Assembly (NCBI GenBank): GCA_944322935.1
Contig: CALUQO010000005.1
Coordinates: forward strand, 1 to 64,000
DNA from: Candidatus Gastranaerophilales bacterium
GTDB taxonomy: Bacteria > Cyanobacteriota > Vampirovibrionia > Gastranaerophilales > Gastranaerophilaceae
Length of the DNA stretch: 64,000 nucleotides
Direction of reading: 5' to 3'
Both the position numbers and the translations under genes were made by a program. Shown in pieces: positions 23,889 to 39,587 of this stretch; position 1 is the first letter of the stretch; each line of letters opens with the position of its first letter. The notes under the pieces were generated by a model that searched no databases, had not been told where the DNA came from, and saw only the letters and a list, made by a program, of their open reading frames with translations.

Positions 23889-24833
23889 CTATTTTTGCAT
23901 AAACGTGCTGACCTCAATGCTGCATGGCGGGAAATCACGTTTGGAGTCATATAATGCCATATTTTCATTACATTTTAACTCGTTTGTAATACTTGAATCC
24001 GGCGTTGGAGCGGAAAAATCGTCAGGTTTTGTGTCTTGAAAATAGCTGTCCAACCCCCAGCTCATTCTGTCCAAAGTCCAATGTTTACCGCTGTATGCCA
24101 CTGATCTTGCTTCGTAGAAAGTCATTGGTATTGAATAATCAAAATCAATATCAGGGTTTGCTGAAACGACTCTGGCTGTCATGTAGGTAGGGTCAAAAAT
24201 GGGGTACCCTTGCGGAACAACCACGCCTGTATCTTTGAATATCGAAAACGGTACAATGTCGGGTCGTTTTTTACCGGTAACGAATCTTGCACTGTTAGGT
24301 CTTCTGTCCCCGCTGATATCAACCCAAACAATATAATTCAAAGCGTCAGGCGATGAAGTAAGATAAAAATTCATACCGTCCGTGGTTTTAAACGAAGGTT
24401 CTTCAGGCGGCTCCTCGGCTGTGGTGAAATCAGACATGGCAAACACCTTGCAAGACGGAGTGCCCACTACATTTATGTAGCCTCTGTCGTCTTTAACAAG
24501 AGCATCGCAAAGCTGTGCTTCGGTAACGGCTGTATCTTCGCAAGATGAGCCTGTGCAGTTAACATAGGGGAATCTTTTTTTCTCGCTGTCGTCAGCACCG
24601 GCTTTGCCTTCATTTTCCTGTGCTTTAAGGTCTTGTTCTGCATTGTAGTCGTCGACATCCTTTTGAATGTTGTAAGTAGCGACATTCAAAGTGTTAAAGG
24701 CCTTGGCATACAGTTTTGAATACGCCTTTTCATCAGCCGTCCTGAAAATTTTGAAAGACAAAAGAACAAGAAGCGATGCAATAGTAATAACTATAAGCGT
24801 TTCAAAAATTGTGAATCCTTCTTTTTTTCGCAT
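23889..24833 (-). CDS. Type IV prepilin-like protein (minor pilin)
   Basis: Last gene of a four-gene minus-strand pilin locus. It has a class III leader MRKKEG|FTIFETLIVIT with Gly at -1 and Glu at +5, followed by a hydrophobic helix to about residue 27. The 314-residue protein is large for a pilin. Its ectodomain has paired cysteines (NCTGSSCED, AQLCDAL, PSCKVF, ELKCNE, FPPCSIE) that may form disulfides, and a segment DISGDRRPNSARF that resembles a Ca-binding or D-region turn. Unlike the three upstream genes it has no polyglycine body. It follows the 486-residue protein after 20 bases and is probably a minor pilin or adaptor for the same fibre. Confidence 0.8.
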   Translation of the reverse strand: MRKKEGFTIFETLIVITIASLLVLLSFKIFRTADEKAYSKLYAKAFNTLNVATYNIQKDVDDYNAEQDLKAQENEGKAGADDSEKKRFPYVNCTGSSCEDTAVTEAQLCDALVKDDRGYINVVGTPSCKVFAMSDFTTAEEPPEEPSFKTTDGMNFYLTSSPDALNYIVWVDISGDRRPNSARFVTGKKRPDIVPFSIFKDTGVVVPQGYPIFDPTYMTARVVSANPDIDFDYSIPMTFYEARSVAYSGKHWTLDRMSWGLDSYFQDTKPDDFSAPTPDSSITNELKCNENMALYDSKRDFPPCSIEVSTFMQK

Positions 24834-24853
24834 TTATGTAATATACCTTTCAA

Positions 24854-26314
24854 TTAGTTCCATTCAACGCGGACATAGCCCGGCATTCCTCTGCCGCCTT
24901 TGCCCCACTTATCTTCAAGAGAACAGCTTGTAGAGGTGCTGCTGTATGCTGCTCCGCCGCCGCCTCCGGCGCCGTATTCATTTTCCGCAGCTTTGACACG
25001 ACCTCGGTTTTCTTTTGCAATGCCCTCGTTGTTGCCCATGTCATTTTGACCGTTCATAGCCGTAGCGGAACACGTGGCAGCACCGCCGCTGATAGAAGCG
25101 CCGTAAGGAGACATTGCTCCGTCTTCACCGGGGATACCCGATGTGTCAGAGCTGTCGGATTTATATCTTATTTTGCCGCCTTCTCCGCCTTTAGCTGTAA
25201 CATAATAGCCGAAAGCGGAAGCCTCGCCGGGTTCACCGTTGGTGTCTTCATATATAGCACCTGCGCCGCCCTGGCCGACGTATACTTTTACTTCGTCAGT
25301 AATGTTTTCAACAGTAATAAAAGCACTAGAACCGCGTTTTCCGCCGCCGCCTGCGTGGTGGCTGTCAGATATAAGCATTACAACGCCGTTATACCCCGCA
25401 TAAGCATCGGCAGTAGATGAACCGTCACCCCCATTGCCATAAACAACCTTAAAGCCGCTGGCGCCTAAATAGCTCATATAATCCTGAGTTTTATTGCAAT
25501 CGGCATTAAAAGCCTTCCCTCCATAGTAGCCAACAGCGTTTTGATCACCGCATTTTGGTTCACCTTGTTCACCGGGGTAGGCTTTACCGCCGCCTTTGCC
25601 CCCTTCGGCAGTAATTGCATTGCTGTAATCACCATATATATAGAATTTGCTTGGTTTACCGTCTTTGCCATTACAAACATCTTTCCAGGTTGTGCCTGTA
25701 CAGGTTGTATCGGCAGTTCCTGAGGATGATTCTGGAGTCTCTGCATCAGGGTCAACAGAACCGCCGCCAACACCGCCCTGCCCTGCTTCTAATATAGCAA
25801 GGTCGCCTTTATGCATATGAACGGTAGTGTATTCCACACCGCCTGCACCACCGCCTTTGTTTCCACGGGGCAAGAGTCCAATCATTGCGCTACCGCCACC
25901 GCCGCCGCCGACAACCAGAATTTTGTAATCACCTTCTGCTTCAGCAACGTAAGATGTTGGAGAGCCGTAAGAAGTGGCATCAACTGCATAAGACGTGCCA
26001 GATGCACCGCCGCCACCGCCACCGATAACGGTAACGGTATATTTTTTAGCGTTTGTCTGAGGTTTAAAAAGGCACATGTTGCCTTCTACTGTTTCGGATT
26101 CCACAGTGCCGTTTATTGTCCTTCTGCTGACATGCTGACCGTTTTCGTTAAGGTAGCATTCCCAAACGCCGTGCGGAGCTTTATTTTTTGTGTTTTTTCT
26201 GGTAATCATCGGTGCGGATGCAATAATCAACAGCATGATTATAAACATTGTGACTAGCACTTCTGTTAAAGAAAAAGCATTTAATATTTTTATGTTGTTA
26301 TATTTTTGTGTCAT
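24854..26314 (-). CDS. Prepilin-leader glycine-rich surface protein (486 aa)
   Basis: Prepilin-type N-terminus with cleavage after Ala13 (LNA|FSLTEVLVTM, Glu at +5) and a helix to about residue 37. Then a short domain with GVWECYLNENGQHV, then YTVTVIGGGGGGASG near residue 95. From there to the end the chain is dominated by Gly runs separated by short polar or aromatic strands, and it closes with the beta strand GMPGYVRVEW. The same order occurs in the two upstream genes, so the three are paralogues. Such bodies resemble the glycine-rich domains of phage tail-tip adhesins. Export by a type II secretion or type IV pilus-like machine is inferred; none is encoded here. Confidence 0.8.
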   Translation of the reverse strand: MTQKYNNIKILNAFSLTEVLVTMFIIMLLIIASAPMITRKNTKNKAPHGVWECYLNENGQHVSRRTINGTVESETVEGNMCLFKPQTNAKKYTVTVIGGGGGGASGTSYAVDATSYGSPTSYVAEAEGDYKILVVGGGGGGSAMIGLLPRGNKGGGAGGVEYTTVHMHKGDLAILEAGQGGVGGGSVDPDAETPESSSGTADTTCTGTTWKDVCNGKDGKPSKFYIYGDYSNAITAEGGKGGGKAYPGEQGEPKCGDQNAVGYYGGKAFNADCNKTQDYMSYLGASGFKVVYGNGGDGSSTADAYAGYNGVVMLISDSHHAGGGGKRGSSAFITVENITDEVKVYVGQGGAGAIYEDTNGEPGEASAFGYYVTAKGGEGGKIRYKSDSSDTSGIPGEDGAMSPYGASISGGAATCSATAMNGQNDMGNNEGIAKENRGRVKAAENEYGAGGGGGAAYSSTSTSCSLEDKWGKGGRGMPGYVRVEWN

Positions 26315-26393
26315 TACTTATTTTTCCTTTTATTGCTCCCTCTCCGAAGGGAGAGGGATCCGGGAGAGGGTTGCCTCTCCTCAGTAGTCTGTA

Positions 26394-29021
26394 TTACCAT
26401 TCGATAATTACTACCCCCGGCGTGCCGGCACCACCGCCGCCATATGCTGCTTTACCGCCGGCACCGCCGCCGCCGCCTGCACCGTATGTCAGGTCAAGCG
26501 GGTGGCCGCCTGTGGTCAAAAAGCTTGTCACTGCACCGAGTACTGAAGCATTAGATCGATTCGGATCCCATGTGTCGAATATCTTGGCGCTTTCGCCACT
26601 CCAGCTTGTATTGCCGTCTGTTTTACCGCCACGCGGAACAATTTTTGCACGGTTGGATTCGTTTTCAATAGGAGACGGTGCACCGTTGGCTCCCGGTACT
26701 GATTCCGTGCTGTTTGCTGCAATCATCTTTTTGGCCTGTCCGCCTTTGCCGCCCTGCAGCTCGAACATTGGTTTTGAAGACGGGCCTTCAAAAATTCTTG
26801 TAGTACCGCCCTGTCCGCCGTCAGACGAACCACCGCCCGGCATGCCGGGTTTGCCTATAATAACTCTTAAATTGCCGAGTTTTTTAGTCATGGTGCTTGT
26901 ATACTGTCCTGCTTCACCGCCTGTACCGCCGTAGGCCGAAGACTTAATAATTGTTACATAGCCTTCTTGACCATCTTCACCGTACAAGACACCATAAGAA
27001 TTTACAAGATCATCGGTTTGGATATAGCTTTTTACCTGTTCGCCAGCACCGTAACCGCCAGACCCGGGGTCACCCTGATATCTTTGTCTGTCGAACATGG
27101 CTGCTACATCGTAGTCTTCGCCGTCTTCCGTATCAGTAGACACATACTCTTTTACGGGATCCTGGAAATACGGGTAATCAAGACCTGTCCAGAAGTTTTC
27201 CGTTGTGGAGAAGTTCATGATTTTTGCCTCGCCGGATCTTGCCGGGTGGCTTTCCGGAATCTCTGCCGTGTATACGCAGGTGTTAATACCATAGCTCGGG
27301 TTGTCAAAGTATTTCGGTCTTACACGCTGTGCATCATCACCTTTTTCATAATATTCACCTGCGTGATAGTTTGTAGAGCATGTCCAATAATCTCGGGTTT
27401 CAACACAGGTCTCACCGGTACAAGTTTTGCTCGGGTCTTCTTCTGTTGGGCAGGAATATGTGTATGGTTCCCATTTAATACACTCTGTGAATGGCCCGGC
27501 TTCCGTACAATCATCCACCCCGACACACTCACCTGAGGCATAATGTACTCCCACACTGCAGTCATAATCATCGGGATAATCAGTTCTTACGCCAGCCACA
27601 ACTTCGTTTTCTATTACAGGTATATTTATATAAAAGTCTATAGGCAGCAGTTTTCTGGCTGCACCGCCTTTGCCGCCTGATGCGGTAAGAACGTCTTTGC
27701 CCAAATAAACGGTTGTGTCACCACCATTAATACCCTCTGTACCGTCAGACACATTATCAGTTTTTAATATAAGATTAGTGAAAGAATTGTCAGGTACATA
27801 CAAACCAACTGTATGAGATGATGAAGTTATTCTTCTGCCTTTGCCCTGCTGGCCGACTGTGGCATAAATACCCTGTCCGCCTTTTAAGAAGATAGGATTG
27901 CCCTCCAGTTCTTTATTTTGCTCGCCTTTTTCTCCGCCCACACCGGGGAGGTTCCAGCATTTTACGTTAGGTTTTTTGCTGTCCATGTCACTCAGGTACA
28001 AACCTTTATAGCTTTGTTCGGCTATTTCCTTTGACATGGGCCAGTTATCTTCCGCAAAGCAAATACCTTTGTTTTTAAGTTCGGATTCCGTGCCTATATC
28101 AGTAGGCAGGTATTTATATTTAAAATCATAGGCGCTTATTTTTTCACCTACAAATTGACCTTTTTCGTCAGTATAGCTGACTTTGGGTTCGGGGTTTTGT
28201 GTTCCGTAGTCGTAATTGTCAGTAAATCTTTTGTCGTTTTGATACAAAAGTTTGTAATCAAAACCCGATACTGGCAGGTCAAAGTAGCCGTATTCATAAG
28301 TTTTTGGATGATACGGGTCTTCACTTTTCAATGCATCGCCTAAATTTGAGCAGTCAAGCTGATATTGGCCTTTTACATCACACGGGGTCGGGTTTCTGCT
28401 CGGGTCATAGGTTTGTGCTTTTTGGTCCCATGCCCAATCTTCATGCCAGGGGCCGCCCTGATTGCCTTCAGAAACACCGCCTGTTGCCGCACCGTGGTGA
28501 TCTTGAGACTGCTGTATAAAATATTTAGCTTCGTTTAAGTCGAAGCCCTGTGCCGTTATCTGGTCTTTGGCTTCGCCGCAGGCCATGCCGCCGCCGCCAC
28601 CGCCGCCGCCTACGGCAACAATGGAGTAGTAACCGTCATTTTCAACATTGCCTGCGTAAATACCGGCATCGTCATCTTTTGAGTTATACACGCTTTCAAA
28701 GTCGCCGGCTGTACCGCCGCCGCCGCCACCACCGCCGCCCACGGCTCTAATTGTAAAGTTTTTTGCGTTAGCAGGGGGGGTAAATGTACAGAAAGCAGCA
28801 TCCGCAAGCTCAAAATCCGAGGTTTTGCCTCTGTACACGGTTTTGATAACGTGTTTTCCGTCACTGTTCAGGGTGCAAATCCATTTACCGTGTTCTGCAA
28901 CATCTTTGTGTTTTCTTGTTATTACGGGCACAAGCGCCGCAGCAAGCAGTGCCGCTATCAACAGCAGTATCAATGCTTCTGCAAGTGTAAATGCCTTAGA
29001 TTTCTTTTCCATATTTATCAT
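26394..29021 (-). CDS. Prepilin-leader glycine-rich surface protein (875 aa)
   Basis: Largest of the three paralogues. The leader MINMEKKSKA|FTLAEALILL has Ala at -1 and Glu at +5. After the helix come GKWICTLNSDGKHV and FTPPANAKNFTIRAVGG, then Gly runs (up to nine in a row) for most of the length. The C-terminus is GTPGVVIIEW. Two non-Gly inserts interrupt it: a Tyr/Asp-rich part (about residues 150-340) and a Cys-rich part (about 475-590; SCPTEEDPSKTCTGETC) that is probably a disulfide-bonded domain. The GC content rises sharply because of GGN codons. Likely an exported fibre tip or adhesin. Confidence 0.8.
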   Translation of the reverse strand: MINMEKKSKAFTLAEALILLLIAALLAAALVPVITRKHKDVAEHGKWICTLNSDGKHVIKTVYRGKTSDFELADAAFCTFTPPANAKNFTIRAVGGGGGGGGGTAGDFESVYNSKDDDAGIYAGNVENDGYYSIVAVGGGGGGGGMACGEAKDQITAQGFDLNEAKYFIQQSQDHHGAATGGVSEGNQGGPWHEDWAWDQKAQTYDPSRNPTPCDVKGQYQLDCSNLGDALKSEDPYHPKTYEYGYFDLPVSGFDYKLLYQNDKRFTDNYDYGTQNPEPKVSYTDEKGQFVGEKISAYDFKYKYLPTDIGTESELKNKGICFAEDNWPMSKEIAEQSYKGLYLSDMDSKKPNVKCWNLPGVGGEKGEQNKELEGNPIFLKGGQGIYATVGQQGKGRRITSSSHTVGLYVPDNSFTNLILKTDNVSDGTEGINGGDTTVYLGKDVLTASGGKGGAARKLLPIDFYINIPVIENEVVAGVRTDYPDDYDCSVGVHYASGECVGVDDCTEAGPFTECIKWEPYTYSCPTEEDPSKTCTGETCVETRDYWTCSTNYHAGEYYEKGDDAQRVRPKYFDNPSYGINTCVYTAEIPESHPARSGEAKIMNFSTTENFWTGLDYPYFQDPVKEYVSTDTEDGEDYDVAAMFDRQRYQGDPGSGGYGAGEQVKSYIQTDDLVNSYGVLYGEDGQEGYVTIIKSSAYGGTGGEAGQYTSTMTKKLGNLRVIIGKPGMPGGGSSDGGQGGTTRIFEGPSSKPMFELQGGKGGQAKKMIAANSTESVPGANGAPSPIENESNRAKIVPRGGKTDGNTSWSGESAKIFDTWDPNRSNASVLGAVTSFLTTGGHPLDLTYGAGGGGGAGGKAAYGGGGAGTPGVVIIEW

Positions 29022-29092
29022 AAACAGATTTGCTCCTGTTATCTTATTCCAGTTGTTACATTTAGTTCTTATTTTATTATATTTGTTTTATT

Positions 29093-29160
29093 AAGGCACT
29101 CTCAATCCACCTTTGAATGTATTTTTTTTGGTATTTTTTGTGGAAATTGAGAGTGCTTAA
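29093..29160. repeat. Long imperfect inverted repeat between two pilin genes
   Basis: AGGCACTCTCAATCCAC (29094-29110) pairs with GTGG-AA-ATTGAGAGTGCTT (29140-29158), with a T-rich loop of about 29 bases. It lies between the stop of the 654-residue gene and the start of the 875-residue gene. It could modulate mRNA stability or read-through; it lacks a U-run on the minus strand. Confidence 0.6.
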
Positions 29161-29172
29161 TATATTTTGTTT

Positions 29173-31092
29173 TTACCAGGTAACAAGTACTATACCGGAT
29201 GCGCCGTTACCGCCTTTGCCGTATTGTACCTTGCTCCAGTCGAAGTCACCGGTACCCAGGGCACCGCCGCCGCCGCCGCCCATGCCGGGCATTGCCATAG
29301 TTTTAGCACCGCAGGAGTTACCCGAGCCAAGGCCTTCGTATTTACAGCTGCTTTTGCCGTGAGATATACCGCCCAGGGATTCTTCAATGAAGTTGCCGGA
29401 GCCAGCTGCATTTTTTACAATTTCCTGCAAGTTTGAAGGAAGAGCGCTGGCAATGCCGTCTTCGCCTTTAGCTTCGTATGAGCCCGATTCAGGATCAATA
29501 CCGTTTGCTCTTATATCACCGCCAAGACCGCCATCAGCAATGATTCTGCTGCCAAATCTTGAAAACATGCCGTCAGCTCCGTCAGCACCGTTTTCTTGAC
29601 CGCCCTGACCGCCTTTACCCGGGAATACTTTGACATAGCCGTCTTGTTTTTCCTGAGGGGTTGACAGAGGGGATTTTGTATAAGAGTAGAAGGATACCGC
29701 TCCGGGCTGGCCGCCGCCGCCGCCGTATACAGCAACTTCTTGTACCTGTACAAAGCCGCCCTGACCGGCCGAGCCTGTTTTACGATAGTCTCCGCCAAGA
29801 CCGCCGTTGCCAAACTGCGAAGGAACCATATCTTTAAGGATAAAAGGGAGTCTTGTACCTACTTCGCCGAGGCATTGCTGTGTGCCGTTATTGTCACGAC
29901 AGATATAGCCGTTAGGTTTATTCTTACGTTCGTCTTCTTTCCAGGGCTCCTGTATAATTGCAGAACCGATAATACCTTCTGCATGATTTTTTTGTTTAGT
30001 TTCTATACCATGTTCTTCAAGAAATTCTTTGGCAGCAATTTTAACAAAAGGATCCGCACCAAACAGCAAGCCTTTTTTAGATTCAAAACCATTTAACTTA
30101 GCAATTGCATAAGCATCATATTCTGCAGAACCGTCTTGTCCGCCTGTACCTTTACATTTCCAGACGCCTTTTTTACGTACGTGCTGGCCGCCACCGCCGC
30201 CGCAAGCAATTATTGTTAACTGCTGGCCGTCAGCGTTTATACCTGCAAATGCGGAGTTAAGACCATAACCACCGCCCTGTTTTCTGTCAGTAGGATGGTT
30301 GCCTGCCAGAATAGTGGTAACAGAAGCTTCAATTGCTTGAAGTGCATTAGCACCAAACAAAATGCCTGTGCCTGCAGCAGTACCGGCCCATGTTGCCATT
30401 GCCGAGCCGAATAAACCTGCAGCAATACCGCCTGTTAATACCCCTGCTACTGCTACACCAATCCAGGCTACAGGCACAAATAAATCCAAAAACACATTAA
30501 TTGGCTTTTGAGGTTGACCACCCGCACCGCCGGGGCCTGCAGCAGCTGTATAAACTTCATTAGGAGACAGTTTTGCCTGGGCAATTACAGCACCGCCTGA
30601 GAAACCGCCGCCGCCGTCACAACCGACACCGCCGCCGCCACCGCCGCCGCCGCCGCCGATAGCTACGATTTGATATATACCTTCACTTGCCGGAACAAAC
30701 GAATTGTCTGTTGAATCAGGGAAGAACACCTTTGACTGTCCGGTGCTGGACATGCCTGCGGCACCGCCGCCACCGCCGCCGACTACCGTAACATTAAAAC
30801 GTGTTACGCCTGCCGGAGGGACAAATTTTGCATATTGCTGTACCTGTCCGTTGACAACTTCCGACCCGACAAGGCTGGCGTCGGGAACGCCGTCTACGAA
30901 TACTTGAAGGTCACCGTTGGCATCGTACATTGCCATCCAGGTATTTTTATCCTGTGAGGCTTCCCTAAGTTCTTTTGAGTGTTTGATTACCGGAATACTG
31001 GCTAGCGTCATCAGAACGATAACCATCATGGTTATTAGCACTTCCGCCAGTGTGAAGGCTAAAAATTTTTCTAGTTTTGTTTTTGATATCAT
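29173..31092 (-). CDS. Prepilin-leader glycine-rich surface protein (639 aa)
   Basis: First gene of the locus. The start at 31092 (MISKTKLEKFLA|FTLAEVLITM) has GAGGAG upstream, while the frame extends 15 codons further without need. Leader cleavage after Ala12, Glu at +5. A helix is followed by NTWMAMYDANGDLQVF and FVPPAGVTRFNVTVVGG, then Gly runs, ending GASGIVLVTW like its two paralogues. Unusual is an internal hydrophobic Ala/Gly stretch (VFLDLFVPVAWIGVAV onward, about residues 195-255), long enough for one or two membrane-like helices inside the supposed ectodomain. About 150 bases separate it from the next gene. Confidence 0.8.
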   Translation of the reverse strand: MISKTKLEKFLAFTLAEVLITMMVIVLMTLASIPVIKHSKELREASQDKNTWMAMYDANGDLQVFVDGVPDASLVGSEVVNGQVQQYAKFVPPAGVTRFNVTVVGGGGGGAAGMSSTGQSKVFFPDSTDNSFVPASEGIYQIVAIGGGGGGGGGGVGCDGGGGFSGGAVIAQAKLSPNEVYTAAAGPGGAGGQPQKPINVFLDLFVPVAWIGVAVAGVLTGGIAAGLFGSAMATWAGTAAGTGILFGANALQAIEASVTTILAGNHPTDRKQGGGYGLNSAFAGINADGQQLTIIACGGGGGQHVRKKGVWKCKGTGGQDGSAEYDAYAIAKLNGFESKKGLLFGADPFVKIAAKEFLEEHGIETKQKNHAEGIIGSAIIQEPWKEDERKNKPNGYICRDNNGTQQCLGEVGTRLPFILKDMVPSQFGNGGLGGDYRKTGSAGQGGFVQVQEVAVYGGGGGQPGAVSFYSYTKSPLSTPQEKQDGYVKVFPGKGGQGGQENGADGADGMFSRFGSRIIADGGLGGDIRANGIDPESGSYEAKGEDGIASALPSNLQEIVKNAAGSGNFIEESLGGISHGKSSCKYEGLGSGNSCGAKTMAMPGMGGGGGGALGTGDFDWSKVQYGKGGNGASGIVLVTW

Positions 31093-31329
31093 GCGCTGCT
31101 CCTCAATTTTTCTAAAAAACAACATGATTATCGGCATTTTATAAAAAAACTTTAATTTTTTTAGTGAATTGTGTCAATTTCGTTACAAAAAAACCAGAAT
31201 TTATATAAAAAGCCTATATTATATAAATACCCATTTTTGATACTTTTATAACATGTTTATTAAGTTTTGTAAAAATGAATTTTTTAAACAAAGGCAAAAT
31301 ACTTGACACGCACGGGTTTTGGTTTTTTA

Positions 31330-34494: not shown

Positions 34495-36081
34495 TCAGCA
34501 AAGGGTAAGAAATTTGTATTTATCAGAAGTTATTACCAATTGGGATTTTGCGTTGCCGCAGCAGAATTTTGAATATTTTATATTATTTTCGTCAAGTTTT
34601 TCGAATATTAGTTGTGCGGTATTTTGTTCAAGTTCACTTTGCGCGTCGTCGAGGATAATGATAAAATCCCCCGCAAGATTTTGCGGTATTAAATCGTTGA
34701 TATTTATTGTTTGTATTTTATCGGAACCGGAAGAACTGCCGATAATTATTAAATCGTATTTTTTGTTTACAATATTTTGTCCGTTTGAAGTATTTGAAGA
34801 ATCTGTCTTTTTAAAAAACTTTTCATACTGCGTGGTCAATTTTGTAGTTTGTCCGAATCCAAACTCAAGGATATTCTCAGGTTGAATTTTATCTAAGATA
34901 ACAAGCAATATATATAAAAGTGAATAATTCGCAAAGCCCTTTGCCGGTATGATGTCTTTGTCCTTAATCCAATCTTTGTGACTAAGCAAATTATTGAAAA
35001 TCAGCCCTCTGCGGAGTTCTTCGTTCTGGAGTTTGATTTCCTCTAAATGAGACTCCAGAGCTTTGAATTTGGAATCAATGAAATCATGAAGATGTATTTC
35101 TTTTATACGTTTTTTGTTTTTGAGCTTGAGTTTTACTCCACATATTGTGATTACTTTGTGGATATTGTCGTTTCTGATGGAAAAAATATTATGTAAAAAA
35201 ATTTTTAAAATATTACTATCATTTGTATTGATGACAATATTAACATAGGGGAACATTGCTTTATATTTTTTTAGAAAAATTTTTTTGTCTAAAGTTCCAA
35301 GTTTTGGATATATATTATATTGTTCTTCAATTAATTTTTCATTTATTTGTTTATTATAACAAGATATTTGTTGTAAATTTAGAAAATCACATATTTTTTT
35401 ATATTCCTCCAAAATGGCAATATCCCATTTAGTATTTTTCCTCCGCATAAGTGAATTATCTCTCAATAAATAGTTATAGCAGGTAGAATTTGTATCTGCT
35501 ATATTTTGTGCATAAAAAACCGCAAAAAAAGTAAAAGGAATATCCTCCCCTCTTTTGTCTCCAAATTGTATCTTATTGTCTATTATAAATTTTTTTTTGA
35601 ATATTTTTGTAAAAACAGAAACATCCTTACTAATTATTTGTTGTTTTTGTTGAAATAAAGAAGAATATTTTTCTAAGTTATATAGACAATTAAAGCTATA
35701 ATCATTATTATAGTGCTTTTTAACCATTGTTCTTGAGATATCAGCATCAATTTCTTTTGCTGCATTATACAAAGTTTCAAAATAGTTAGATTCAATCCAG
35801 TCATCAGCATCAACAAAGCCTAAATATTCTCCACAAGCTTCTTTTACACCTAAATTTCTGGTCGCACCTGGCCCTTTATTTTTTTGATTGATTATTCGTA
35901 TTCTTGAATCATTATTTGCAAACTCTTCAAGTATGTTTAAAGATGAATCTGTAGATCCGTCATTAATACAAATAATTTCTATATCTTTTAATGTTTGATT
36001 CATTATACTATCGAGACATTTTTTAAGATAGTTTTCCACATTGTATACTGGTATAATTACAGAAATTTTTATATTTGACAT
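34495..36081 (-). CDS. Family 2 glycosyltransferase fused to a methyltransferase-like domain
   Basis: Two-part protein of 528 residues. Residues 1-130 are a GT-A family 2 domain (ISVIIPVYNVE, ICINDGSTDSS, metal site VDADD at 90-94). Residues 299-321 carry the module IFSIRN..HKVITICGVKLKLK. A coiled-coil-like piece (335-365) leads to a Rossmann-type domain (385-528) with LEFGFGQTT at 405-413 and YDLIIIGSSSGSD, FIIILDDA, resembling small-molecule methyltransferases. The stretch between LEFGFGQTT and YDLIIIG is short, so SAM binding may be lost. Its start directly abuts the upstream gene's stop, so the two are translationally coupled. Confidence 0.8.
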   Translation of the reverse strand: MSNIKISVIIPVYNVENYLKKCLDSIMNQTLKDIEIICINDGSTDSSLNILEEFANNDSRIRIINQKNKGPGATRNLGVKEACGEYLGFVDADDWIESNYFETLYNAAKEIDADISRTMVKKHYNNDYSFNCLYNLEKYSSLFQQKQQIISKDVSVFTKIFKKKFIIDNKIQFGDKRGEDIPFTFFAVFYAQNIADTNSTCYNYLLRDNSLMRRKNTKWDIAILEEYKKICDFLNLQQISCYNKQINEKLIEEQYNIYPKLGTLDKKIFLKKYKAMFPYVNIVINTNDSNILKIFLHNIFSIRNDNIHKVITICGVKLKLKNKKRIKEIHLHDFIDSKFKALESHLEEIKLQNEELRRGLIFNNLLSHKDWIKDKDIIPAKGFANYSLLYILLVILDKIQPENILEFGFGQTTKLTTQYEKFFKKTDSSNTSNGQNIVNKKYDLIIIGSSSGSDKIQTININDLIPQNLAGDFIIILDDAQSELEQNTAQLIFEKLDENNIKYSKFCCGNAKSQLVITSDKYKFLTLC

Positions 36082-37194
36082 TTATACAATCTCCCTGTGT
36101 GACTTTTTTCTTTTTATTTTTATTGAACACCCAATAACAGTAAATACTTTATGTTTTGAGTCAAAGCTATTTCTTATAGAAAAGATTTTTTCGGCTAAAG
36201 AAAGTTTTTTGGGCTGTCTCTTATTAAAATTTGATAGTAATTGTTTAACTTTTAACAAATTTTTATTATTTGCATAATACAAAATAGGATAATCATTTTT
36301 TTCTATTTTATGATTAAATACTGAAATCATTTCATATATTAAATAAATATAAAGGTTTAACTCTTCTTTGCTGACAAATTGACTCCAATAATAAACTTGA
36401 TCCATTGTATTTTTCATTAAATAGTCAATTTTATTTTTATTAATATTTTTTAAACTAGAAGCAAAATTTAGACAACATTTAGAGGCTAATAAAAGATCAA
36501 AATAATCTTTAGTTATATTTTTCACAGATTTATCCATAATACTATTATTTGTTAAGTAATAGTTATAAAGAGCATGATTTAAACCATATGCAGTATGAGA
36601 AATTAAAATATATTCTTGTATAAAGACCATGTCATCTATTTTTAATCCATCTGCAAATCTGACATTATATTTGTCAATTAGCGATTTTTTAAAAATCTTT
36701 TTCCATAAAAAAACATGGATTTTCCGTTCAATATGTTTTTCTTTATCAAGGTCCAGTTTCCCCTTAAATGCTAATTTTTCATAAGGGTTAGTTTTTCCTA
36801 TTTTTCTTTTGGAACCATCCCTTATAATATTAACATCACAAACCACAAGGTCTACGTCTTGTTCCTGAATTGTTTGAACCATTTCTTCAACCATGGTGGG
36901 TTCATATTTGTCATCGGCATCACAAAACATAATGTACTCACCGGTTGAATTATCTAATCCCATATTTCTGGCTATTGCAGGTCCCTGATTTTCTTGGTTA
37001 AAAACTTTTACTCTACAATCTTTTTGTGCGTATTTATTTAAAATTTTTAAGGAATTATCTTCAGAACCGTCATTTACACACAAAATTTCTATATTAGGGT
37101 ATGATTGGTTTATTAAAGCGCTGATGCTCCTATCTAGAAATTTTGCTGCATTATAAACAGGCATAATAATTGAAACTTTAACTTTATCCGACAT
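36082..37194 (-). CDS. Family 2 glycosyltransferase
   Basis: A 370-residue GT-A glycosyltransferase, probably adding a sugar to a surface polysaccharide or glycoprotein glycan at the inner face of the membrane. N-terminal VSIIMPVYNAAKFLDRSI, LCVNDGSEDNS and the metal motif FCDADDKYEP (near residue 92). The C-terminal half is helical. The last 38 residues contain the shared module IFSIRN..KHKVFTVIGCSIKIKRK. Its start overlaps the radical SAM gene by 11 bases and it abuts the next transferase. Donor and acceptor are unknown. Confidence 0.87.
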   Translation of the reverse strand: MSDKVKVSIIMPVYNAAKFLDRSISALINQSYPNIEILCVNDGSEDNSLKILNKYAQKDCRVKVFNQENQGPAIARNMGLDNSTGEYIMFCDADDKYEPTMVEEMVQTIQEQDVDLVVCDVNIIRDGSKRKIGKTNPYEKLAFKGKLDLDKEKHIERKIHVFLWKKIFKKSLIDKYNVRFADGLKIDDMVFIQEYILISHTAYGLNHALYNYYLTNNSIMDKSVKNITKDYFDLLLASKCCLNFASSLKNINKNKIDYLMKNTMDQVYYWSQFVSKEELNLYIYLIYEMISVFNHKIEKNDYPILYYANNKNLLKVKQLLSNFNKRQPKKLSLAEKIFSIRNSFDSKHKVFTVIGCSIKIKRKKSHREIV

Positions 37195-38536
37195 TACATT
37201 TGTCCTTTCTCTTTATTTTAATTTTTATACCTGCAATATTTATTACCTTGTGTTGGTCGTGATTTGTTAAAGAAAAAATTTTACGCAATTGTTTTGATAT
37301 TTGTTTTTTTAAAACATCGACTTTTTTTACAAAAATAATTTTGTCTTGAGGATATCTTGATTTTACTGATATCCCTTTTAATGAATCAGGATTTTTAATA
37401 TATTCTCTTATTGAACGGGCTTTTACATTAAATAGTTCTAACCCGTCAAATTCGTATAAACAGCCTGGGTTTATAACAAGTTCGGAAAAATATTTTTGTG
37501 CATTTTTTGATTTATAGTTTCGGCGGCTCAAAATAATCCAATCTTGAGGTTTTTCAATTTTTATTGTTTCACTAAGTTCTTCTTCCGGTATAAAACTAAA
37601 ACTTTTTGGATATATATCTCTATTCTCTTTGGTTGTTCTTATATTGTTGCCTGCTAATATGTAATCAGAAGCTCCAACAAATGTTTTATAGTTATTTTTA
37701 TTTTTTTGATAATCTTCTTTTGTGTGTATGACATACAAACCATTTTTCATTTTAGGTGAACCAATAGTTATTAATTTTTCCGCCATAGTTTCGCTTATGT
37801 CATCTTTGCCATCATTTGACAATCTTTTGGGTACATCAAGACACCCTGAGCAAAATTCACACCAGTGAAGTTGATCTGTAAAATCTTTTGGTTCTCTTTT
37901 CCACCATCCTGGCTTAACATCCCATCCCCCCGGGCCGTTAAAAAGCATGTCGAGAGCACCTGCTACTTCACAGAAAAAAGCTCCTTTAGGTGTAATTGTT
38001 GAAGACCAGGTGTTTTGAATCCAGCAATTATCCCTTTTGGCCACCCATTCTTCATCATCAATACCTAAATCTTTTCTTGACATTAATAGAGCTTGATGCA
38101 AGCAGGTGTTGTTATGGTCATTGCAATTTTGAGCTTCAAAAGAGTCATTTATTGTCTCAAAATGTTTGTAGTAACTTTTGTTTAATGAGGACCAAAGACC
38201 TGCTTTGCTTTTATGAAAATCTGTAAAATGCTCTAGTATGTAACTTTGCATATCAACAATGGGTTCTCTGGTATTTTTTACAGAATGTTTAATTCTTTTT
38301 TCTTTTATATAATCTGCAAATTTTTCAAATTCGGGGTGAAGTGTTGGCTCGCCGCCAATTACCCCCACACATCCTTCATATCCATCAAGTGGATCAACAG
38401 CATTTTTAAATGTTTCAAAATCCATAAAAAATGTTTTAGGATGGTGTCCACAAAATCTCGTGCAATTGGAACATTTATGTATACAAGCATTTGTTATGTC
38501 TATTTGAATAATTAATTGATCCTTAGGGCTTTTCAT
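37184..38536 (-). CDS. Radical SAM protein in a glycosyltransferase operon
   Basis: Radical SAM enzyme of 450 residues. The cluster motif C18-x3-C22-x2-C25 (CIHKCSNC) and the SAM motif GGEP (VIGGEPTLHPEF) are present. Further cysteines in the middle (DNCWIQ, FFCEVA, WCEFCSGC) may bind a second cluster, as in SPASM-type proteins. Residues 300-420 are a separate domain of unknown type. The C-terminus (417-445) holds the shared module IFSLTN..HKVINIAGIKIKIKRK. It overlaps the genes on both sides (14 and 11 bases). It may modify a sugar, lipid or peptide made by this locus; the reaction cannot be predicted. Confidence 0.82.
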   Translation of the reverse strand: MKSPKDQLIIQIDITNACIHKCSNCTRFCGHHPKTFFMDFETFKNAVDPLDGYEGCVGVIGGEPTLHPEFEKFADYIKEKRIKHSVKNTREPIVDMQSYILEHFTDFHKSKAGLWSSLNKSYYKHFETINDSFEAQNCNDHNNTCLHQALLMSRKDLGIDDEEWVAKRDNCWIQNTWSSTITPKGAFFCEVAGALDMLFNGPGGWDVKPGWWKREPKDFTDQLHWCEFCSGCLDVPKRLSNDGKDDISETMAEKLITIGSPKMKNGLYVIHTKEDYQKNKNNYKTFVGASDYILAGNNIRTTKENRDIYPKSFSFIPEEELSETIKIEKPQDWIILSRRNYKSKNAQKYFSELVINPGCLYEFDGLELFNVKARSIREYIKNPDSLKGISVKSRYPQDKIIFVKKVDVLKKQISKQLRKIFSLTNHDQHKVINIAGIKIKIKRKDKCNVG

Positions 38537-39587
38537 TTGTTATCTCCTGTTTAAATACTCTTTCTTTTCTTAAAAATTTAAAGACAAAACCGAACACCAC
38601 ATATGTTTTATCTGTTTTTGTTGTTCTAATATCGAACACATCAAAAAACTTCTTGTGATGATATTTGAATAAAATCAAATTCAACTTTCGGAAGTTACAC
38701 ATTTTTTGCTGCTCGGATTTTGTAAATGAATTTTTTATAAAATTTAAAAAGTCAGAAATATCCTTTTCGTACTGTTTTTTTAGCCATTCGTCCGAACTTT
38801 TCCGCCAGTAATATATACAACCGCCTATAAAATGGTTTGTTGAGGCTATTTTCATCGGTCTTGACTGCTTTTTGTATATTTCAGATTCTACTAACGCCCT
38901 GTATGCTGCAAAGTCATTTCTTATACAATTAGCAAATTTTTTTGTCGCCGCACCTTCTCTGTCATCACTGTAGTTGTACAATGGTTCTAAAATAAATGAA
39001 TATTTTGGATTTTGATAAAATGTTTTAAGGCAAAATACTAAATCTTCTGCATTTTTTATTCCTAATGGAAAATTTATCTTATTTTTTTCTAAAAAATCTT
39101 TTTTAAATGCCTTGTTCCAGATATAAACATTTATTTTTATTGTTTCTTTTAAAACTTTAGAATGTTTAATAAAATTTCTTATATCTTTTAAGGAATTTGA
39201 ATTATCAATGACTTTTGTTTTATTAAAAACATTATGTCCCCACATAACGATGTCGGGGGTTTCGGTGTTTATTTTTTCAACAACTTTTTCACACAGCGTC
39301 AAATCGTATGTATCATCGGGGTCAAGGAACATTATATATTCACCGCAGGCAGCCTCTATGCCTGCATTTCTTGCTGCAGATACACCTTGATTATACTGGT
39401 TTATAAGTTTAATTCTCGAGTCTTTTTGAGCGTAATTTTCAAGAATAGCAAGAGAATTATCGGTAGAACCGTCGTTAATACAGATGATTTCTATATCTAC
39501 AAAAGTCTGTTTTATAACACTTTCCAGTGCTTGAGACAGATATTTTTCAACATTGTATACGGGGATTATGACTGAGCATTTAGGCAT
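38523..39587 (-). CDS. Family 2 glycosyltransferase
   Basis: A 354-residue GT-A transferase with CSVIIPVYNVEKYLSQAL, ICINDGSTDNS and the metal motif FLDPDDTYDL (near residue 92; DPD instead of DAD). The helical C-terminal half ends with a diverged copy of the shared module (VFDIRT..KTYVVFGFVFKFLRK). It is the second gene of the operon; its start lies inside the end of the XRE regulator (8-base overlap) and its end inside the radical SAM start. Probably acts in surface glycan assembly. Confidence 0.87.
   Translation of the reverse strand: MPKCSVIIPVYNVEKYLSQALESVIKQTFVDIEIICINDGSTDNSLAILENYAQKDSRIKLINQYNQGVSAARNAGIEAACGEYIMFLDPDDTYDLTLCEKVVEKINTETPDIVMWGHNVFNKTKVIDNSNSLKDIRNFIKHSKVLKETIKINVYIWNKAFKKDFLEKNKINFPLGIKNAEDLVFCLKTFYQNPKYSFILEPLYNYSDDREGAATKKFANCIRNDFAAYRALVESEIYKKQSRPMKIASTNHFIGGCIYYWRKSSDEWLKKQYEKDISDFLNFIKNSFTKSEQQKMCNFRKLNLILFKYHHKKFFDVFDIRTTKTDKTYVVFGFVFKFLRKERVFKQEITNEKP

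Follow-up and report, generated by a model that had tools for sequence, protein, structure and literature searches.

We asked what three adjacent genes, each joining a prepilin leader to a large glycine-rich ectodomain, might do for their host, Candidatus Gastranaerophilales bacterium. The genes lie in a stretch of 64,000 nucleotides (hereafter the window). The original prediction, made from the letters and their translations, held that the three proteins share one unusual plan, that their bodies resemble phage tail adhesins and the glycine-rich region of ALK/LTK, and that, if anchored as prepilins, they would make up a new class of adhesin or fibre tip.

Four prepilin genes and their shared plan

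Four open reading frames occupy window positions 31092-23889 on the minus strand and are transcribed in the order P4, P3, P2, P1 (Table 1), with intergenic gaps of 151 (P4-P3), 79 (P3-P2) and 20 bases (P2-P1). An earlier start for P4, at 31137, has been replaced by ATG 31092 (639 aa, MISKTKLEKFLAFTLAE), which is most likely correct, because it is preceded by a GAGGAG sequence of ribosome-binding type and is also where five orthologues begin. The P3/P2 gap contains a perfect hairpin-forming element, CTCTCCCTTCGGAGAGG (26339-26355), found in one copy in the window where shuffles led us to expect none; it may be a dispersed palindromic repeat. Upstream of the operon, at 34495-39587 on the minus strand, is a cluster with three family-2 glycosyltransferases and a weak radical SAM match, possibly a set of surface glycan genes.

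Table 1. Features of the operon by window position; a slash in a leader marks the predicted cleavage site.
Feature	Position	Strand	Remarks
Sigma-70-like promoter match upstream of P4	31149..31177	-	TTGACA-17-TAAAGT, 10/12; consensus match only
P4, 639-aa prepilin, glycine-rich ectodomain	29173..31092	-	leader MISKTKLEKFLA/FTLAE; C-terminal end GIVLVTW
P4 hydrophobic Gly/Ala-rich insert (residues ~197-260)	~30313-30504	-	between two glycine motifs
Sigma-70-like promoter match, P4/P3 gap	29076..29105	-	TTGAGA-18-TATAAT, 11/12; consensus match only
P3, 875-aa prepilin, glycine-rich ectodomain	26394..29021	-	leader ...KSKA/FTLAE; C-terminal end GVVIIEW
P2, 486-aa prepilin, glycine-rich ectodomain	24854..26314	-	leader ...ILNA/FSLTE; C-terminal end GYVRVEWN
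P1, 314-aa minor pilin, no glycine body	23889..24833	-	leader MRKKEG/FTIFE; fourth operon gene, conserved
Terminator-like hairpin, 3' of P1	23848..23876	-	12 pairs

Class III signal peptides consist of a short hydrophilic leader ending in Gly or Ala, followed by 20-25 mainly hydrophobic residues, usually with Glu at +5. All four window proteins begin in this way. At the cleavage site, position -1 is occupied by Ala in P4, P3 and P2 and by Gly in P1, the two residues in which prepilin leaders end (PMC10191384). In P4, P3 and P2 the leader is followed by Phe at +1, Glu at +5, a hydrophobic helix, a turn region, a strand F-x-P-(P/Q) ... GGGGGG, the glycine-rich body and a last strand (S/P)G-x-V-x-(V/I)-x-W; P3 additionally carries long inserts rich in Cys and aromatic residues. 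The N-terminal regions of the paralogues are homologous (BLASTP E 1e-11 and 3e-10). The N_methyl profile PF07963 (cut-off 21.2 bits) scored P1 at 20.3, P2 at 15.0 and P3 at 12.9 in protein scans, with no match to P4, and gave 24.5, 18.4, 18.4 and 13.1 for P1, P2, P3 and P4 in a genome scan. No NCBIfam equivalog was found above cut-off for any of the four.

To these three proteins we added 78 glycine-rich prepilins from 24 other genomes. Leader, helix and Glu+5 are present in all 81 (residue -1 is Ala in 42 and Gly in 39), as is a C-terminal strand G..[VIL]x[VILM]xW. The prepilin anchor proposed for the three adjacent genes is supported. Chance resemblance is ruled out by these 81 proteins of the same plan and by the conserved operon.

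The W-x-(C/M) turn of the original prediction held in part. In P3 and P2 it belongs to a Cys pair (WxC ... C-x-F-x-P), and exactly two Cys, mostly as HG(W/F/Y)xC ... C-x-F, lie between the helix and the first glycine run in 71 of the 81 proteins; P4 and its five orthologues (6/6) have neither. The four remaining exceptions comprise one protein with a single Cys, where an early glycine run shortened the count, and three with four. That P4 orthologues lost both Cys jointly suggests that the pair forms a disulfide.

Five congeneric genomes retain all four genes in this order, and dN/dS for comparisons within the genus is ~0.10-0.38 wherever dS is unsaturated. In a tree of N-terminal regions, P2, P3 and P4 form separate orthologous groups across congeners, and tandem triplets from four other genera fall into three additional groups according to gene position. 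One genome (G169) carries the triplet twice consecutively (L080:5764-10832 and L080:12133-17036); the two copies pair by position in the tree, and the triplets were thus apparently duplicated as one block. The fusion of prepilin to ectodomain, the operon and its conservation are in this way established at the level of sequence.

Named loci matched by the N-terminal profile belong to MAGs of Candidatus Gastranaerophilales, and a single genome can hold up to ten strong matches. Among 386 genomes sampled across the phylum, 96 match at E<=1e-9; these belong to a single family and represent 21 of 142 sampled genera, with the proviso that 13 candidates per genome were scored and that matches near 1e-10 may be ordinary pilins. 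A search across the order added a single strong match (2e-18), in G016, which belongs to another family.

Predicted fold of the glycine-rich ectodomains

We predicted structures for P2 and P4 with AlphaFold, aligning sequences from the window and its related loci. The P2 model, built on a shallow alignment of ten sequences, has a mean pLDDT of 74, with 326 of 486 residues at 70 or more and means of 82-94 in the ten-residue blocks from 51 to 140. Its helix (residues 16-32) leads through a low-confidence linker (residues 32-44, pLDDT below 50) directly into a sandwich. The P4 model, from a similarly shallow alignment of seven sequences, is only moderately confident, with a pLDDT of 60.6 and 220 of its 639 residues below 50, and passes from a continuous helix (residues 4-45), with no loose linker, into the sandwich.

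Compared with solved structures, the P2 model matched the Pam3 cyanophage fibre 7YPX (Z 15.5 over 167 residues, 2.6 A, 23% identity), the tail tip of mycobacteriophage Bxb1 (Z 13.3 over 168 residues, 3.7 A) and ALK/LTK (Z 7.5-8.8); TNF and other sandwiches followed at Z ~4, which we counted as common likeness only. The P4 model matched Pam3 (Z 15.0), Bxb1 (13.8) and LTK (9.2), with the next row at 4.9, although the alignments behind the two models overlap in part, so that the models are not fully independent. The proposed likeness to phage tail adhesins and to the ALK/LTK glycine-rich region is therefore borne out by the models, at Z 13.3-15.5 for the former and up to 9.2 for the latter, and they support a TNF-like sandwich with a glycine-rich lattice as the ectodomain fold. 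This arrangement is seen in the predicted P2 and P4 models only; P3 is assigned to the same fold group by its sequence homology with P2 (E 1e-11).

A Foldseek search of viral predicted structures returned many glycine-rich domain-containing proteins from tailed phages and giant viruses. The Gly_rich_2 profile PF21722 (cut-off 24.3 bits) recognised P2 (51.7); P3 (16.0) and P4 (23.1) scored below the cut-off, though P4 shares the predicted fold, and PHROG 863 (tail fibre) was matched by all three. A tblastn search of 50,697 phage records with the P2 ectodomain found no match, and a PDB sequence search with an alignment yielded pilin helices and chance-like glycine matches only, with no sequence-level match to ALK/LTK.

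Glycine-rich bodies might instead be disordered low-complexity spacers with no specific fold, and both the poor alignment of glycine-rich sequence and the extent of low pLDDT in P4 would agree with this. Yet P2 reached its pLDDT with just ten aligned sequences, both models hit one set of solved structures at Z 13-15, and glycines are the most conserved residues. We regard this highly improbable reading as ruled out by confident cores that match the same structures in both models, and the compact ectodomain of the original prediction stands on the same grounds.

Conservation across six P2 orthologues averages 0.87 for Gly against 0.47 for other residues; among P4 and P3 orthologues it is 0.72 for Gly against 0.39 and 0.42, respectively. 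The most conserved blocks of P2 are the helix, the turn, residues 341-380 and the last strand. Its least conserved blocks (181-200 and 241-300) are loops between glycine motifs and overlap low-confidence parts of the model. By analogy, this is the pattern of Pam3, in which the stem is conserved and the tip variable.

P4 differs in its hydrophobic insert. With the pilin helix excluded, the five most hydrophobic 19-residue stretches among the 81 proteins all belong to P4 orthologues (Kyte-Doolittle means 1.6-2.2), and the sixth P4 orthologue ranks ninth (1.4), against a family median of 0.94. Hydrophobicity persists in the orthologues even though conservation of the insert's sequence, at 0.12-0.23, is among the lowest. 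The insert may form a membrane hairpin in the bacterium's own inner membrane or a loop that contacts a target.

Pilus machinery and the probable location of the glycine-rich pilins

The machinery that a prepilin anchor calls for is present in the same genome (assembly of 2.3 Mb, 99.8% complete). One contig (C38) encodes a secretin, a PilB-type ATPase and a full PilC-type platform protein, another (C14) encodes the prepilin peptidase, and three ATPases score above the PilT/PilU cut-off (504, 411 and 430 bits against 319). A termite-gut genome of the same order has been reported to carry pilA, B, C, D and T (PMC5877343). PilY1 (PF05567) was found in 0 of 97 genomes of the order, a weak negative given that control genomes gave no match either.

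The best-scoring model for the PilB-type ATPase is that of type IVa pili (525 bits, below the equivalog cut-off). For the secretin and PilC homologues, the GspD and GspF models give slightly higher scores than those of PilQ and PilC, again below cut-off. These last scores would suit the pseudopilus of a type II-like secretion system, with the glycine-rich heads serving as substrate receptors. We consider that very unlikely given an assembly ATPase that is best against PilB, and because three PilT/PilU-family retraction ATPases are present, a retractile, type IVa-like pilus is the better reading of these genes.

Other pilin-related genes occur in the genome. A second PilC/GspF-like platform protein (L085:6276-7292, plus strand, contig C12) lies apart from any assembly ATPase or secretin. 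Two further prepilins (L088:5887-7038, plus strand, contig C7; L090:6762-8015, plus strand, contig C2) bear long (S/T)G tracts of the type SGSTSGSSGSTSG, by sequence a second, different low-complexity pilin extension.

On balance, we favor the explanation that P4, P3 and P2, as modular type IV pilins, make up an adhesin complex at the pilus tip. The class III signal peptide would target the three proteins, which would be cut after Ala(-1), and the N-terminal helix would then insert them into the retractile type IVa-like pilus. Each ectodomain would fold as a TNF-like beta-sandwich whose glycine-rich loops extend as a stacked lattice, as in Pam3 gp24 and ALK/LTK, with the variable loops at the far end of the lattice touching the target surface. 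Together with the minor pilin P1, the three paralogues would make up a multi-subunit adhesive and priming complex. The tip is the most likely position because a shaft could hardly accommodate ectodomains of ~440-835 residues carried by a short helix. We infer processing, assembly, tip position, ligand binding (adhesion) and stoichiometry, and hold the fusion and the fold to be far more secure than location and function.

The same proteins might be distributed along the shaft, a flexible linker letting their heads hang laterally and coat the filament. The low-confidence P2 linker would permit this, Glu5 is kept in all as is usual for shaft subunits, and a location in the pilus body has been considered possible for modular pilins with flexible linkers (PMC8179133). 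However, heads of this size would crowd the shaft, the predicted P4 helix is continuous, and a trio of genes at fixed operon positions, accompanied by a minor pilin, looks more like a tip set; we judge a shaft location unlikely.

The proteins could also remain in the inner membrane facing the periplasm, cut by prepilin peptidase or not, and outside any pilus. The operon is not adjacent to the pilus machinery genes, and the P4 insert could serve as a second membrane hairpin. Moreover, the genome encodes a leaderless paralogue of 238 aa (L093:6493-7209, minus strand, equivalent to G000:C3:15495-16208) with a plain N-terminal membrane helix, an RGRFVC ... C-x-F turn, a short glycine-rich body and a GAVVIIW end. 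Of 23 genomes in the genus, 22 have a match to it (strong ones at 52-80% identity, one weak), and a search outside the genus found none at E<=1e-15. Its conservation with a similar small ectodomain means that a plain membrane anchor can also hold the domain, which leaves room for a membrane-based role; the paralogue itself could be an assembly base or a membrane partner. Against an inner-membrane location of P4, P3 and P2, leader and Glu5 are kept in 81/81 proteins and would be needless for a plain anchor, and the fold and variable loops better suit surface recognition. We consider it quite unlikely.

A more elaborate form of the tip complex would have P4, P3 and P2 assemble by way of their TNF-like sandwiches as a heterotrimeric, phage-fibre-like receptor-binding head on the tip of the retractile pilus, with the P4 loop entering the target-cell membrane. 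It is attractive because the Pam3 head is a trimer and the paralogues number three, and if true would describe a bacterial organelle working as a phage tail tip on a pilus, but we give it little credence.

Gastranaerophilales live in animal guts, and this operon provides concrete surface-adhesin candidates, in sizeable families; a literature search for ligands of Gastranaerophilales pili found none. If this reading is correct, the ectodomains should have a TNF-like/glycine-lattice structure, the Cys pair should form a disulfide, the proteins should localise to the tip, and one subunit of the three should carry a hydrophobic loop.

Relation to known pilins, phage fibres and receptors

Modular pilins are already established: in Streptococcus sanguinis, PilB and PilC bear adhesive domains, have been modelled at the tip on steric grounds and work together with a plain minor pilin (PMC8179133, PMC9934059). 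The claim of a new adhesin or fibre-tip class is narrowed accordingly. By the definition of Raynaud et al. 2021, a pilin motif joined to a non-pilus domain, the glycine-rich proteins would be modular pilins (PF21722 in P2; the P2 and P4 models). What looks new is the module, a TNF-like sandwich with a glycine-rich lattice on a pilin, and its use as three tandem paralogues; in the samples searched it looks restricted to one bacterial order. The literature held nothing on point for glycine-rich or ALK-like pilins, although the supplementary table of the 2021 modular-pilin catalogue may include an earlier entry for this architecture.

As in S. sanguinis PilB and PilC, a leader and helix are fused to a bulky non-pilin domain, and one gene set includes several such pilins and a plain minor pilin. 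There, adhesion was shown, whereas here we infer it; the module there is vWA or lectin; and here one module occurs in three paralogues, no separate globular pilin head is recognised in the P2 and P4 models with their shallow alignments, and the host is a non-photosynthetic relative of cyanobacteria.

GspI/J/K, PilHIJK with PilY1 and trimeric CofB/TcpB are likewise small minor-pilin sets proposed at the filament tip, some with large extra domains, but those domains are unrelated. Moreover, the proposed tip-cap subunits GspK and S. sanguinis PilA lack Glu5, whereas all four operon proteins keep it and include no such PilHIJK/GspHIJK-type capping subunit. Like the distance of the operon from the machinery genes, we counted this against a close copy of the known tip complexes.

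The names of PF21722 (Gly_rich_2) and PHROG 863 carry no tested function, and the closer comparisons are structural. Like the fibre protein gp24 of myocyanophage Pam3 (7YPX), the modelled pilins combine an N-terminal helix, a TNF-like sandwich, a glycine-rich lattice and variable distal loops. The TNF-like/glycine-rich domain pair of gp24 is its proposed receptor-binding part and is trimeric, and its authors remarked on the likeness to ALK; unlike the pilins, the phage protein is a homotrimer that needs a chaperone and has no prepilin leader (PMC9608196). The glycine-rich (TG) domain of ALK/LTK (7NX1, 7NX3, 7MZY) shares the TNF-like sandwich and glycine-rich lattice with our models (Z 8.3-9.2), but belongs to animal receptor kinases that bind a protein ligand. 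The glycine-rich pilins would thereby link phage receptor-binding tips, the ALK/LTK receptor fold and type IV pili.
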